DNA of 64,000 nt, taken from positions 434,001 to 498,000 of the forward strand of contig NZ_CANMNI010000002.1 of assembly GCF_947499215.1 (NCBI RefSeq). The letters run 5' to 3'. The position numbers and the translations under genes were made by a program. How positions within the stretch are numbered: the first letter of the stretch is position 1; each line of letters begins with the position of its first letter. This stretch comes from an uncultured Pontibacter sp. GTDB lineage: Bacteria; Bacteroidota; Bacteroidia; Cytophagales; Hymenobacteraceae. Below the pieces are notes generated by a model that did no database searches, was not told the DNA's origin, and was given only the letters and a program-made list of their open reading frames with translations. Below are positions 47,868-52,728 of the stretch, one piece after another.

Positions 47868-48848
47868 CTAGCTTACCCGCAGCACAATCTTCCCGATATT
47901 CTTGTTGGCCTCCATATACCGGTGCGCCTCCGCTGCGTCCGACCAGTCGAATACAGAATCAACAACTGGTTTGATCGTGCCATTCTCAAATAAAGGCATG
48001 GCAAAAGCTGCCATGTCTTGTGTGAGTCGGATCTGGTAATCGCGGGTACGGGAGCGCAGCGTAGAGCCGATCACTTGCAGGCGCTTGATCAGAATCTGAC
48101 GCAGGTCAAAGTCTTCTACTTTGCCGCCGCCTAAACTAGCCAACAACACCATTCTCCCATCTAGGCGCAAGCACTCGATGTTCTGCTTAAAGTAGGGGCC
48201 GGCAATAAAATCCACGATCACATCCACCCCTTCCGAATTGGTATGCGCCAGCACCTCGTCTTCAAAAGGCACTTCTTTATAATTAATGGCTTTGTGCGCA
48301 CCCAGTTCTAGACAGGCTTTGACTTTGTGCTCCGAAGCCGTCACCAGTACTTCCGCCTTCAGGGCACGGGCCAACTGTATACCTGCCGTGCCCACGCCAC
48401 TTGCTCCGGCATGAATCAACACCCGCTCGCCAGCCTGCAGCTTGCCTAGCCAAGAGATCGCTTGCCAAGCCGTCAGGAAAACCTCCGGTATGGCCGCCGC
48501 CTCTTCCATGCTCAGGTTTTCAGGTATAGCCATGGCCATCTCTTCGTGAATCACGGCGTACTCGGCATAGCCGCCGCCCGGTAGCAGGCCCATCACCTTG
48601 TCTCCCTTTTTGAAACGGGTGCAGCCTATACCTGCCTCCACCACCTCTCCGGCTATCTCAAGCCCCAGCAGCGGGCTTTCTCCCTTCGGAGGAGGGTACT
48701 TGCCCTGTCGCTGCAAGGTGTCGGCACGGTTAAGCGCAGTGGCATGCACGCGCACCAGCAGTTCATATGGCTTGGGCAGTGGCTGTTCGGACTCTCCCAG
48801 CACCAGTTGTTCTGGTCCGCCGGGTTGCTTTACAAGAATGGCTTTCAT
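47868..48848 (-). CDS. Zinc-independent quinone oxidoreductase (PIG3-like)
   Basis: This 326-residue medium-chain dehydrogenase/reductase belongs to the NAD(P)H:quinone oxidoreductase group. The catalytic-domain start is ALNRADTLQRQGKYPPPKGE, the segment typical of the human PIG3-like subgroup. The nucleotide motif is ERVLIHAGASGVGTAGIQLA, followed by ELGAHKAINYKE. Zinc ligands of alcohol dehydrogenases are absent. It should reduce quinones with NADPH by one-electron transfer. It has no obvious operon partner. Confidence 0.92.
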   Translation of the reverse strand: MKAILVKQPGGPEQLVLGESEQPLPKPYELLVRVHATALNRADTLQRQGKYPPPKGESPLLGLEIAGEVVEAGIGCTRFKKGDKVMGLLPGGGYAEYAVIHEEMAMAIPENLSMEEAAAIPEVFLTAWQAISWLGKLQAGERVLIHAGASGVGTAGIQLARALKAEVLVTASEHKVKACLELGAHKAINYKEVPFEDEVLAHTNSEGVDVIVDFIAGPYFKQNIECLRLDGRMVLLASLGGGKVEDFDLRQILIKRLQVIGSTLRSRTRDYQIRLTQDMAAFAMPLFENGTIKPVVDSVFDWSDAAEAHRYMEANKNIGKIVLRVS

Positions 48849-49009
48849 ATCTGTTGATTTAGAGTTAAGTCAGGCTATACCTTAAGACGCCAGCTAAAAA
48901 TAGATGTTTCCGCTTTATTCCCATAACCGCTTCCACTGGCAGCATTCGTAATTTTGATCCTCATCAGAAAAAAATAATTAAAGAATTATTACATAAACAC
49001 TTGACCTTA

Positions 49010-49044
49010 TTACGAAACTTTCGTAACTATACGAAAATATCGTA
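49010..49044 (+). promoter_or_regulatory. Two tandem BlaI-type operators
   Basis: Two palindromes of identical layout, TACGA-N5-TCGTA, lie at 49011-49025 (within TTACGAAACTTTCGTAA) and 49030-49044. Their centres are 19 bp apart, nearly two helical turns. They end 5 bp before the blaI ATG, so a bound repressor would block transcription or its first steps. This fits autoregulation by the encoded BlaI-like repressor. Confidence 0.8.
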
Positions 49045-49049
49045 GAATT

Positions 49050-49415
49050 ATGGAAAAGCTGACACAACAAGAAGAAGATGCCATGCAGGCGATTTGGTCG
49101 CTGGACGGCGGTTTCATCAAAGACTTTTTGGAACAACTGGACGAGCCGAAACCGCCTTATACCACATTGGCCTCTACGGTGAAAAATCTGGAGAAGAAAG
49201 GCTTTTTGCAGAGTGAGAAGTTCGGCAACACCTACCGCTATACGCCACTCATCAAAGAAGAAGACTACAAAAAGCGCTTCATGAAAGGCTTTGTGGGCGA
49301 CTATTTTAAAAACTCCTACAAAGAACTGGTGGCTTTCTTTGCGAAGGAGAAGCAAATTAGCGCCGAAGAGCTGAAAGAGATTATTGACATGATCGAGAAC
49401 AAAAAGTCGAAATGA
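49050..49415 (+). CDS. BlaI/MecI-family transcriptional repressor
   Basis: This 121-residue winged-helix repressor has the family pattern LTQQEEDAMQAIWSLDGGFI and YTTLASTVKNLEKKGFLQSE. The C-terminal dimerisation helix ends FFAKEKQISAEELKEIIDMI. It is expected to bind the two operators just upstream and to be inactivated by the M56 protease encoded one base downstream. In Bacteroidota such pairs are often not linked to a beta-lactamase, and none is seen here. Confidence 0.93.
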   Translation: MEKLTQQEEDAMQAIWSLDGGFIKDFLEQLDEPKPPYTTLASTVKNLEKKGFLQSEKFGNTYRYTPLIKEEDYKKRFMKGFVGDYFKNSYKELVAFFAKEKQISAEELKEIIDMIENKKSK

Positions 49416-49416
49416 T

Positions 49417-52038
49417 ATGCCAACCCTGCTCCTATACCTGCTGAAAGCAAACGTAGCCCTCGTGCTGTTTTACTTGGCTTACCACTTGGTGCTGCGCAAA
49501 CTCACGTTTTATCACCTCAACCGAATTTTTCTGGTGTTCGGCATTGTGTTCTCTGCTGTGTATCCGCTGGTTGACCTCACCGAACTATTTAGCCGACACG
49601 AAGAGCTTGCCGCCATGCAAAGCTATGCGGTAGTGCTGCCTGCTTGGACACCCACCGCTATACCTGAGCAAGCCGAAGCATTCGACTACTGGCTCATACC
49701 TGTCGGGCTATTCTGGCTCGGCTGCGGCCTGATGCTGCTACGGCTGATCATGCAGTTTGCCTCGCTCTACCAAATACACCGCGCCTCGGTGCCCGCCTCC
49801 TATCAAGGGGTAGGCTACCGCAAGGTGCAAGGCATAAGCGAAGCCTTCTCGTTCTGGAAAACTATTTACCTGAATCCGACACAGCACCAATCGCCTGAAC
49901 TGGAATCGATCCTGCGGCATGAGCAGATTCACGTAAACGGCTGGCATACGCTGGATGTACTGCTAGCGGAGTTGAGCACCGTTTTTTACTGGTTCAACCC
50001 GGGTGTGTGGCTCATGAAAAAGGCCATGAAAGAAAACTTAGAGTTTATAGCTGACCAGCATGTTGTAGATGCTGGCGTCGATAGAGTAGCATACCAATAC
50101 CTCTTACTGAAAGTTGTAGGCGCCACACAACCTCAGATTGCCAATCAGTTTAACTTCCCATCCCTTAAACGAAGAATTGTCATGATGAATAAAATGCCCA
50201 CAAGCAAGGCAAACCGGCTCAGACTGCTGGTTGTGTTACCGCTCGTAACGGTGCTGCTGGTTGCCTTCCGGAACGCCACTCCTCTAACAGAGTCTATAGC
50301 AAACATAGCAGAAACTGAGACGTTGCAACAAAATGAAGGATCTAAGCTGCCTGACGAACTTGTAGACATCTTAAAAAACATCTTAACAAATCATCCAGCC
50401 ATAAAAAGCGTGCGTGGTAAAGTTGTTGACAACAGAAATGCTGTAGTTATCAGTTTAAAAGACGGCGGCACGGAAATATATTACCTTGACAGTAGCAAAA
50501 GCATTGCTGCCTTAGAGCGCAAATATGGTGAATTGCCAAGTACGCCACCAGTAACCAGAAGAGATAAAACAGGCCAAGAACCCATCTACACATCAGAAGA
50601 TTATGAAGAATTTTTGATACGCAACCCGAATGTAAAGCGTGTGTATTGGGTACCTGATGAAGAAGCAAGCCAAGAAAGCAAAGTTGACCGTATGGTAGTT
50701 GAGCTTAAGTCTGGTGGCCTTGAAAGCTACCGAATGGTTTACAAAAGCGAGATAGACGCAGCCGAGAAAAAGTACGGCAAACTGCCTGCAAAGCCAGCTA
50801 GGCCGCCAATGGTCGACAACTCAGAGCTGCCAGTTCCTCCTGCGCCTTATAACCCAGATCAGGATGAAAGGGCGAAAAAAGTAGCTGAAGAGCACAAGGC
50901 TTTCTATGCCCGCAACCCGCAGGTAAGAAAGATTGAATGGATATCCAGAAATGAGATCAGGGTAAGGCTTGAATCAACGGAGGAAATCTACAAAATGACT
51001 GACAAGAAAAGTCGTGCTGCGGCTGAGAAAAAGTATGGTCAGTTTCCATCAAGCCCAGGTGCTGCACAAGTTGTATCCAGAGCAGAGTTTGAATCTCAGA
51101 AGAATAATGCTGTACAGCAACAGAACGGGGAACGCATCTTCTCACCAACGGATATTGGCTACTACCAAGACCGCAAAAACCTGCCTGTGGAGTATACCAA
51201 CTTCCTGAAAAGGAACCCGACGATTGATAAAGTTGGCTGGAAAATCCATCCGGAGAAAGGCCCACAAGCAGTAGTGCTTTTTCTAAAATCGGGCACCACC
51301 GAAATATATAACCTGAATGACCAGAAGAGCATGGCGAAAGCGAAAAGTAAATACGGCGAATTCCCTGGTTTACTGCCGCCGCCACCGCCTGTGATGATAA
51401 AAGATGAATTGCCTCCTCCCCCACCGCCTGCACCGGCTGCCCCAGATGCGCCGCCAGCTCCGGATAAAAATGAACTACTGTCAGGCATGCCAAAAGGAGC
51501 GCTGTATTATATTGACGGAGTAGAAGCGAGCCGAGAAGCCTTACAAAAGCTTGACCCAAAGACTATCCACAGTATGAATGTAGTCAAAGGTAAAACCGCA
51601 GTAGATCTATTCGGCAATAGAGCCTCAAAGGGTGTTGTTTCGTTTGTAACTGAAAAGAACAAAGAATCCCGTCAGGTACAGGAGTTTAATAAAAAACTTC
51701 CTACCCCGCCAGCACCGCCTGTTCCAAATGCACCCGGCACGCCACCGCCTCCTTCTGCACCAGCCGACATCCCTGTAAAAATTTATATTCCAGATGCCGA
51801 TAATCTTCATGAAGACCATAAAGCGTTCCTAAAACGGAATTCAGAGGTAAAAGAAATAGGCTGGATGATTGGTGAAAATGACAGCAAAAAGCTCAGGATG
51901 ATAATACTGTATTTGAATGAGGGGAAAACAGAAGCGTATGATTTGGATAATGAGGCATCTATTGCAAAGGCGGAGAAAAAATATGGAAAACTACCTAACC
52001 TGCCACCTCCGCCGCCACCTGTAAAAAAGCAGAAATAG
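49417..52038 (+). CDS. BlaR1-like M56 metallopeptidase with five C-terminal repeats
   Basis: This is an 873-residue integral membrane protease and sensor. The first 290 residues hold four or five membrane segments with the zinc motif HEQIH (168-172) and the downstream acidic ENLEFIADQH. Instead of a penicillin-binding sensor, the exported part carries five repeats of about 55-65 residues, near 316-374, 394-457, 491-544, 592-650 and 798-860. Each follows the pattern FLxRNPxVKxVxW ... LKSGxTExYxL ... AEKKYGxLP. They are separated by proline-rich linkers. Between repeats 4 and 5, GALYYIDGVEASREALQKLD and the following residues to ASKGVVSFVT resemble a TonB-receptor plug motif. The stop-start spacing to blaI is one base. 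Confidence 0.88.
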   Translation: MPTLLLYLLKANVALVLFYLAYHLVLRKLTFYHLNRIFLVFGIVFSAVYPLVDLTELFSRHEELAAMQSYAVVLPAWTPTAIPEQAEAFDYWLIPVGLFWLGCGLMLLRLIMQFASLYQIHRASVPASYQGVGYRKVQGISEAFSFWKTIYLNPTQHQSPELESILRHEQIHVNGWHTLDVLLAELSTVFYWFNPGVWLMKKAMKENLEFIADQHVVDAGVDRVAYQYLLLKVVGATQPQIANQFNFPSLKRRIVMMNKMPTSKANRLRLLVVLPLVTVLLVAFRNATPLTESIANIAETETLQQNEGSKLPDELVDILKNILTNHPAIKSVRGKVVDNRNAVVISLKDGGTEIYYLDSSKSIAALERKYGELPSTPPVTRRDKTGQEPIYTSEDYEEFLIRNPNVKRVYWVPDEEASQESKVDRMVVELKSGGLESYRMVYKSEIDAAEKKYGKLPAKPARPPMVDNSELPVPPAPYNPDQDERAKKVAEEHKAFYARNPQVRKIEWISRNEIRVRLESTEEIYKMTDKKSRAAAEKKYGQFPSSPGAAQVVSRAEFESQKNNAVQQQNGERIFSPTDIGYYQDRKNLPVEYTNFLKRNPTIDKVGWKIHPEKGPQAVVLFLKSGTTEIYNLNDQKSMAKAKSKYGEFPGLLPPPPPVMIKDELPPPPPPAPAAPDAPPAPDKNELLSGMPKGALYYIDGVEASREALQKLDPKTIHSMNVVKGKTAVDLFGNRASKGVVSFVTEKNKESRQVQEFNKKLPTPPAPPVPNAPGTPPPPSAPADIPVKIYIPDADNLHEDHKAFLKRNSEVKEIGWMIGENDSKKLRMIILYLNEGKTEAYDLDNEASIAKAEKKYGKLPNLPPPPPPVKKQK

Positions 52039-52061
52039 GGTAACAGCTTATACCTGAGTTT

Positions 52062-52110
52062 AAACTCACCGACCTAAAGAAGCCCTCTGCCACTTCAGGT
52101 CGGTGAGTTT
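52062..52110 (+). terminator. Long hairpin after the M56 gene
   Basis: AAACTCACCGACCT pairs with AGGTCGGTGAGTTT (14 bp) around a 21-nt loop. The usual T-run is weak (TTATACC follows), so it may be a terminator or an RNA-stability hairpin. TATACCT words flank both arms. Confidence 0.6.
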
Positions 52111-52204
52111 ATACCTAACCTTCCTAGCCTTTTGCTTTTTACACTATTCCCCTGTGTCACAGCATATTTCTACACCAAGTATTGCATATCAAATAAAGAG
52201 TTTC

Positions 52205-52212
52205 TATCTTTG
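52205..52212 (+). promoter_or_regulatory. Bacteroidota -7 element of the rplM operon
   Basis: TATCTTTG matches TAnnTTTG exactly, with a TTG about 20 bp upstream. It lies 66 bp before the rplM start. Confidence 0.6.
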
Positions 52213-52278
52213 TGACCATTTTTCAAGAACCATCGAGAAAAAATTAATTGTTAAATAAATCGCTTACAACCACCAAAA

Positions 52279-52728
52279 ATGGATCATTTAAGTTATAAGA
52301 CCCTTACTGTCAATAAGAAGACAGCCAACAAAGGCTGGGTGATTATCGACGCGGGGCAAGGAAGCTTGGGTCGTGTGGCATCGGAAGTTGCCAAGATCCT
52401 CAGAGGCAAGCACAAGCCTTCATTCACGCCAAACGCTGACTGCGGTGACAACGTGATTATCATCAATGCTGATGATACTCGTTTCACAGGACGCAAGTGG
52501 GATCAGAAGTACTACCTGACACACACGGGTTACCCAGGTGGTCAGAAGAAGACTTCTCCACGTGAGCTTAAGGCTAAATCATCAACGCTGCTCGTAGAGC
52601 GTGCGGTTCGTGGCATGTTGCCTAAAGGCCCACTAGGTCGCGAGCTATTCAGAAATCTTCATGTTTTTGCAGGAACCGAGCATCCATTTGCAGCTCAGCA
52701 GCCTAAAGAATTAACCCTCAACATCTAA
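52279..52728 (+). CDS. rplM: 50S ribosomal protein L13
   Basis: L13 is an early-assembly large-subunit protein. The 149 residues include NKGWVIIDAGQGSLGRVASE, KTSPRELKAKSSTLLVERAV and RGMLPKGPLGRELFRNLHVF, all typical. It starts the operon rplM-rpsI-rpsB; rpsI follows 6 bp later. Codon use is strongly biased, as expected for a highly expressed gene, and the AGGTATA word is absent here. Confidence 0.99.
   Translation: MDHLSYKTLTVNKKTANKGWVIIDAGQGSLGRVASEVAKILRGKHKPSFTPNADCGDNVIIINADDTRFTGRKWDQKYYLTHTGYPGGQKKTSPRELKAKSSTLLVERAVRGMLPKGPLGRELFRNLHVFAGTEHPFAAQQPKELTLNI

Follow-up and report, generated by a model that had tools for sequence, protein, structure and literature searches.

Locus and predicted features

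The DNA analysed here is a stretch of 64,000 nucleotides from an uncultured Pontibacter sp. (contig NZ_CANMNI010000002.1, positions 434,001 to 498,000; the whole stretch is referred to as the window). It holds a gene for a BlaI/MecI-type repressor and, separated from its stop codon by 1 base, the start codon of a gene for an M56 protease. By sequence, this second gene encodes an M56 protease of the BlaR1 type, with BlaI as its partner repressor, and behind its membrane part the protein carries a long modular tail with five copies of a small unit and one half of a SusC/RagA receptor plug. The unit, called the KYG unit after its ending, is a small domain without a name that is defined by this locus. 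The features are as follows (window positions, strand).

49011-49025, strandless: distal BlaI-type operator TACGA-N5-TCGTA (TACGAAACTTTCGTA), an exact genome match conserved before blaI in relatives
49030-49044, strandless: proximal BlaI-type operator (TACGAAAATATCGTA), 19 bp beyond the distal site, also an exact genome match
49050-49415, +: BlaI/MecI-type repressor gene, 121 residues (Pfam Penicillinase_R, expectation value (E) 2.2e-28; alignable with MecI and with BlaI of S. aureus)
49335-49340, +: BlaI Phe96-Phe97, candidate cut site by alignment to S. aureus BlaI (1sd4)
49417-52038, +: gene of the M56 (BlaR1-type) protease, 873 residues including the modular tail
49417-50274, +: membrane and gluzincin core, residues 1-286 (Pfam M56, AlphaFold helices, BlaR1 structural match)
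49918-49932, +: zinc motif HEQIH, residues 168-172 (invariant H168, E169 and H172)
50041-50055, +: presumed third zinc ligand Glu209 with Asp213 (ExxxD), invariant in 30 aligned sequences
50335-50538, +: KYG unit 1, residues 307-374 (profile; alpha-beta3-alpha in the full model)
50575-50787, +: KYG unit 2, residues 387-457 (profile, full model)
50839-51048, +: KYG unit 3, residues 475-544 (profile, full model)
51172-51366, +: KYG unit 4, residues 586-650 (profile, full model; also modelled alone)
51367-51480, +: proline-rich linker before the plug, 16 Pro in 38 residues (residues 654-680 with a predicted local distance difference test score (pLDDT) below 50)
51481-51696, +: SusC/RagA plug half, residues 689-760 (profile matches and structural alignment)
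51697-51786, +: proline-rich linker after the plug, 13 Pro in 30 residues (residues 766-786 with pLDDT below 50)
51787-51996, +: KYG unit 5, residues 791-860 (profile, full model)
51997-52035, +: C-terminal polyproline end NLPPPPPPVKKQK, 6 Pro in 13 residues

Protease core and its repressor

Comparisons were made over 31 relatives, which comprise the window protein, the loci of the best-scoring matches and locus L011; weakly matching members of the genus are under-represented in this set. Loci L007-L010 were dropped, as they lie on the same contigs as L016, L013, L015 and L012. L030, which runs off its locus and is complete as L088 with an equal count, is included in the 31-relative counts and left out of the 30-row alignment.

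The N-terminal part of the protein matches Pfam Peptidase_M56 with 47.2 bits (curated cut-off 31; E 2.2e-12), and residues H168, E169, H172, E209 and D213 are invariant in the 30 aligned sequences, that of the window included. The HEXXH and ExxxD motifs to which they belong are described for BlaR1 in the available part of PMC9834060. AlphaFold places long helices of hydrophobic type at about residues 2-26, 32-51, 93-124 and 264-286, to which a membrane role is ascribed. The list of structures similar to the full model is topped by five BlaR1 entries (Z 12.5 to 9.2, against 5.1 for the row below), the best of which aligns over 207 residues at Z 12.5 and a root-mean-square deviation (rmsd) of 4.2. 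The original prediction of an M56 protease unlike the penicillin-binding BlaR1 agrees with these results, as Pfam reported no penicillin-binding domain in the protein at a limit of E 10. The NCBI model blaR1_generic covers residues 154-295 only, with 34 bits vs 400, and PHROGs returned a single match, to the core, at 0.095.

BlaR1 cuts BlaI between Asn101 and Phe102, and the residue after the cut is an almost invariant Phe (PMC9834060, available part). This bond of S. aureus BlaI (1sd4) aligns with Phe96-Phe97 of the window BlaI, and both positions are Phe in 31/31 BlaI sequences, the window BlaI among them. The M56 protease thus probably cleaves BlaI at Phe96-Phe97. Likewise, by similarity to BlaR1, the tail would lie outside the cytoplasm.

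KYG units of the tail

The tail comprises the 587 residues after the last predicted membrane helix, with five copies of one unit of 65-71 residues ending in KYGELP, KYGKLP, KYGQFP, KYGEFP and KYGKLP. The array had been predicted at 50362-51996 as five copies of 55-65 residues joined by proline-rich linkers. The number of copies and the end position stand, the start moves to 50335, and the units are longer by our bounds. A proline-rich character is confirmed for the two linkers flanking the plug, is moderate between units 1-2 and 2-3 (2/12 and 5/17 Pro) and is low between units 3-4 (2/41).

Scored by profile comparison, the copies resemble one another well beyond chance, contrary to the outcome that would have refuted the original observation. 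Whichever copy is left out, a profile of the other four recovers it at E 4.9e-12 to 3.3e-20, against 0.0099 for the best of 2000 shuffles per leave-one-out target. All pairwise unit scores (10/10) lie 12-26 standard deviations above 1000 shuffles, and without the last nine residues, which hold the KYG end, they still lie 3.8-21.5 standard deviations above; the weakest trimmed pairs, 1-2 and 1-3, are matched by 1 and 5 of 1000 shuffles. Six positions (E47, Y49, K63, Y64, G65 and P68) are conserved at 90% or more over 71 copies. Unit 4 modelled alone, from an alignment of 71 units of 30 proteins, folds with a pLDDT of 93.1 and a predicted template modelling score of 0.78 into a helix, three strands and a helix (alpha-beta-beta-beta-alpha). 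The same order is found in all five copies of the full-length AlphaFold model, in which the linkers are of low confidence. Because the conserved core is kept and the folding is confident, the unit appears to be under constraint. The net charges of units 1-5 are 0, -4, +4, +6 and -2.

The KYG unit has no clear relative among the matches listed, which does not in itself make it a new fold. No Pfam family recurs over the 71 copies at E up to 1 among the families listed (25/30), the commonest of these being DUF2931 (3/71 copies, best 0.0018). Against the PDB the best sequence match has E 0.27, and by fold the best Foldseek E is 0.099 and the best VIA Z 4.0. Several candidates were considered and set aside. 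For example, hhalign gave a probability of only 0.4 for TonB_C and 2.1 for the plug. Unit 1 of the full model resembles chain A of a Lactococcus ribosome entry, presumably a hibernation factor, at Z 5.0, rmsd 4.8 and 68 aligned residues, below the trusted level; the weaker matches to dsRNA-binding domains, which have the helix-strands-helix layout in common, also fall below it.

A divergent PepSY_like domain (PF11396), a known periplasmic fold in Bacteroidota, is an improbable identity for the unit. The order of one helix and three strands agrees by eye, and hhalign pairs KYG positions 15-48 with the half-repeat in a plausible register, although weakly (score 13.0, probability 2.6). UipA, which we take to be a PepSY protein, stands at rank 4 in the Foldseek search with the full model (probability 0.66, E 0.05). 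However, 2/100 column-shuffled controls score equally, PepSY_like is not among the families listed (25/30) over the 71 copies, and PepSY matched one copy at 0.019. Unlike PepSY_like, the KYG unit has a second conserved helix as well, which ends in KYGxLP.

The plug segment

With the SusC/RagA model TIGR04056, residues 689-760 give a match at E 3e-7; with Pfam Plug they score 23.5 bits, just below its cut-off of 23.9. A profile built from 25 plug segments finds RagA at E 1.8e-12, and all 11 PDB matches of this profile below 0.001 are SusC/RagA-type or other TonB-dependent receptors. The structural comparison points in the same direction: residues 679-747 of the model align with the SusC homologue 6zlt_B (Z 4.0, rmsd 2.6, 67 residues, 28% identity), and the Foldseek row of the full model with RagA has an rmsd of 1.5 over 52 columns, 35% identity, E 0.26 and a probability of 1.00. 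The plug-like segment foreseen between copies 4 and 5 is accordingly upheld as a SusC/RagA homologue, but only for the C-terminal half of the domain. The N-terminal plug half is unmatched and Pfam reported no beta-barrel model in the window protein; a complete SusC from the window's genome has a Plug match over 2-107 plus the barrel. Binding of TonB by the segment, for which a test had been proposed, is unsupported, the N-terminal half of the plug being unmatched. TonB_C was not reported by Pfam in the window M56 protein.

Relatives and evolution of the tail

A survey of repeat number, as had been proposed, gave 0-5 KYG units and 0-2 plug modules per tail over the 31 relatives, with the KYG unit in 30/31 and the plug in 23/31; one of the four units of L023 is partial (E 1e-2). 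The nearest neighbour of a unit in multi-unit proteins is a unit of another species in 62/63 cases and of the same protein in 1/63, hence the unit types predate the species. On these comparisons the repeats are old duplications, as predicted, in an array that is still reshuffling. At least 15 changes in copy number and at least 4 in plug presence fall on the 30-row core tree; L040, which has a very long branch and may be a separate lineage, is excluded from these counts. For example, the core-tree sister L021, which has 83% core identity and a long branch, carries a single unit vs five in the window protein, and three are found in L012, whose first 300 residues are 92% identical. The median identity to the window protein is 0.71 for the core and 0.42 for the aligned tail columns (29 sequences).

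All five named genomes that hold a relative belong to Pontibacter. The KYG unit occurs in 39/50 genus genomes, 58/150 family genomes and 3/395 phylum genomes, the window's genome counted. It is confined in the latter to the M56 gene at 49417-52038, and it lies inside M56 proteins in the nine loci read from other genera of the family (L077-L085). One distant M56 protein (L076) combines the KYG unit with TonB_C and a pair of plug stretches. A stand-alone proline-rich protein of 157 residues with a signal-like start (L075:1291-1764, +), from a distant family of the class, contains one KYG unit. The motif LPxLPPPP is present in 22/31 relatives, counted by occurrence and not by position in the protein. 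An alpha/beta-looking C-terminal module (EVAxxAFxxxGFxLKF...) was seen by eye in the tails of L012, L014, L029 and L037 and not in the window protein; that of L012 has no Pfam match.

Operators and regulation

The pattern TACGA-N5-TCGTA has two exact matches in the whole 4.3-Mb genome, both just before blaI, vs 7 for a reversed single-site control. Both sites are exact, with spacing equal within 1 bp, in 28/31 relatives; in two others the proximal site deviates by one mismatch, and the pair is present in the remaining relative (L023) too. A third site is present in 6/31. In the genus, the pair (up to 3 mismatches) is found in 42/47 genomes and occurs exactly once in 38/47, and the reversed pair under the same tolerance gives 16 matches in 14/47 genomes and 0 in the window's genome. 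The genomes lacking the pair (G025, G029, G032, G033 and G151) are all without the KYG unit. Further single sites occur in other genus genomes among the matches listed. BlaI presumably binds at both operators. As the only exact operators sit before its own blaI and the pair recurs genus-wide, the blaI-M56 switch looks self-regulated.

Extra operator pairs were read in four genomes (G017, G034, G001 and G024). In G017 (L196) and G034 (L197) a pair lies about 125 bp before a gene for a secreted thioredoxin-like protein, with a mismatch in one of the two sites in G034; G017 has an additional pair 71 bp before the gene of a CarboxypepD_reg protein, and in G024 the extra pair precedes a second blaI-M56 pair. 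An exact pair in G001 (L198, G001:C1:4092500-4099000) stands beside a broken M56 relative, apparently a decayed second copy. The thioredoxin-linked pairs hint at a wider regulon in G017 and G034. No general target beyond the operon itself was found, as the thioredoxin-like gene is found in 4/47 genomes at E 1e-60, none of them the window's genome, and 2/4 copies show no operator within 300 bp.

Ton-system modules in other M56 proteins

Two sets of M56 proteins of the phylum (30 and 16 proteins, two in both) were scanned with Pfam, and 44 open reading frames with the profiles. The larger set includes the paralogue of the window's own genome (L119) and a fragment of 263 residues (L115). Among 20 M56 regions, L121, L123, L124 and L127 were left out, with no reading frame passing the motif filter; for L114 and L117, which are cut off at the ends of their loci, L139 and L140 were used instead, both forms being in the Pfam scans. 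TonB_C was found in 13/30 and 4/16 proteins, CarboxypepD_reg in 2/30, Plug in 3/16 and ExbD in 1/16. The plug profile matches 5 of the 44 reading frames and the KYG profile 0. By these domain matches, Ton parts in the M56 tails of the phylum are a tendency and not a rule, as many tails are of another kind. An M56 protein at L133:593-2170 (-) has an ExbD/TolR domain in its tail (E 8e-10).

The close relative L088 has two TonB_C stretches. The window's own genome has a paralogous BlaI/M56 operon (L141 2217-10354, G000:C1) whose M56 protein ends in a TonB_C tail. A susC-susD pair runs divergently from this operon, and the gene after the operon encodes a protein with three TonB_C stretches. The promoter region of the paralogous operon seems, by eye, to hold a different operator pair, ACTAA...TTAGT. 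The receptor-facing role first proposed for the tail is plausible through these modules (TonB_C, Plug, CarboxypepD_reg and ExbD) in M56 proteins of the phylum and through the paralogue beside susC-susD, albeit indirectly. In Porphyromonas gingivalis, a BlaI gene is among those differing in both expression and methylation with hemin supply, and the M56 gene of the next locus tag is among the methylated sites (PMC10470040, available part).

Gene neighbourhood

Upstream of the operon lie genes for a histidine kinase, a pseudouridine synthase and a zinc-type dehydrogenase, and downstream those for L13, S9, S2, EF-Ts and a MutS-like protein. An inverted repeat of 22 nt (52058-52114, 91% complementary, 13-nt loop) was noted in the interval that separates the M56 stop codon from the ribosomal protein genes; a simple scan called no terminator at this repeat. 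Rfam gave no match within 48800-52400.

Comparison with known systems

The window pair shares with BlaR1/MecR1 and BlaI/MecI the core fold, the zinc motif, ExxxD, the BlaI partner, the Phe at the aligned cut site and the paired palindromic operators before blaI. It differs in that no penicillin-binding domain was detected, in its modular tail and in its operator, exact sites of which stand in the window's genome only before the operon itself.

MecR1-TonB fusion proteins were reportedly described by Chu, Peacock and Vogel in Biometals in 2007, so that the general kind is already known. The window protein resembles these fusions in joining an M56-type membrane part to Ton-system parts, and the paralogue in its own genome is of such a type; unlike them, it shows no TonB_C match, and its tail is built of KYG beads and a plug half. 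With SusC/RagA receptors it shares the plug half, homologous to that of RagA, but it has no barrel match and no N-terminal plug half, and the segment is carried on a protease of inner-membrane type. In literature searches, no title or abstract start among the matches listed mentions plug-bearing or KYG-bearing M56 proteins, and the available part of PMC12204202 mentions neither M56 nor BlaR nor MecR.

Possible functions of the tail

We favour, with a probability of about 0.45, the reading that the protein is a BlaR1-type antirepressor whose tail senses the envelope from within the periplasm and in all likelihood monitors the Ton/SusC machinery of the outer membrane. The parts themselves (protease core, BlaI partner, operator pair, five units and plug half) are securely established from the sequence. 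That the tail is a sensor is likely because BlaR1 works so; Ton/SusC as the watched machinery is the best guess that the modules of relatives and their neighbouring genes allow, and a Ton/SusC ligand is put forward as a proposal. In such a system, an extracytoplasmic signal passed through the membrane core would activate the cytoplasm-facing zinc protease, which would then cut its operon partner BlaI and free the blaI-blaR promoter. Where BlaR1 has its penicillin sensor, this protein would carry a long and flexible chain in the periplasm, made up of five alpha-beta3-alpha beads and one plug half, with partly proline-rich spacers between them. This chain would most likely reach across the periplasm and read the state of the Ton/SusC system, e.g., unassembled or engaged receptors.

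A number of observations weigh against this reading. Many M56 tails of the phylum lack any Ton-type module, and neither the KYG unit nor the plug seems to be needed in every relative: the plug is missing in 8/31 relatives and the KYG unit in 1/31, as well as in 11/50 genus genomes. Six of the KYG-free genomes (G012, G019, G021, G035, G106 and G148) keep the operator pair, so the switch also occurs without beads. Around the locus, no receptor gene is found among the window genes scanned, and no exact operator stands before any receptor gene in the window's genome. The plug match is limited to Pfam positions 56-107 of 107. As for the core, Foldseek on its own finds BlaR1 at no better than E 4e-3, and the M56 part of the full AlphaFold model has a modest pLDDT.

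It is unlikely, though worth weighing, that the tail is a cell-wall sensor whose KYG beads and polyproline touch peptidoglycan, wall damage then activating the protease. The tail does come after the last predicted membrane helix, and BlaR1 responds to wall-targeting drugs (PMC9834060, available part). On the other side, no wall-binding Pfam domain was reported in the protein, the net charges of the units are mixed, and relatives carry plug and TonB_C modules, which suggest outer-membrane transport more than the wall.

The tail could also be a passive spacer or drifting filler whose modules are gained and lost with little consequence, sensing being left to the helices in the membrane or to the loop that joins helices 2 and 3, a doubtful reading. 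The frequent changes in repeat number and plug presence on the core tree would suit it, as would the lower identity of the tail and the operator pair retained in the six KYG-free genomes. It accords poorly, however, with core residues conserved over 71 copies, with their confident fold and with the retention of at least one KYG unit in 30/31 relatives.

In a variant that is quite unlikely, the plug half would be a decoy that competes with real receptors and so gauges SusC/Ton assembly or overload, and the KYG unit would be a new periplasmic binding module. Lastly, an unrecognised beta-lactam sensor like BlaR1, which the BlaI partner and the BlaR1-like core might suggest, is most improbable in view of the missing Pfam penicillin-binding domain and the partial blaR1_generic match.

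Biological meaning

BlaR1-type sensors are known for antibiotics, yet an M56 gene above the family cut-off is present in 31/60 sampled genomes of the phylum. The signals of these genes are, to our knowledge, mostly unknown. At the present locus the protease stays constant while its tail is remodelled from species to species, and the single operator pair per genome in most genus genomes offers a clean readout. If the tail does read the Ton/SusC system, as we favour, the operon would connect nutrient uptake at the outer membrane directly, by proteolysis, with transcription.

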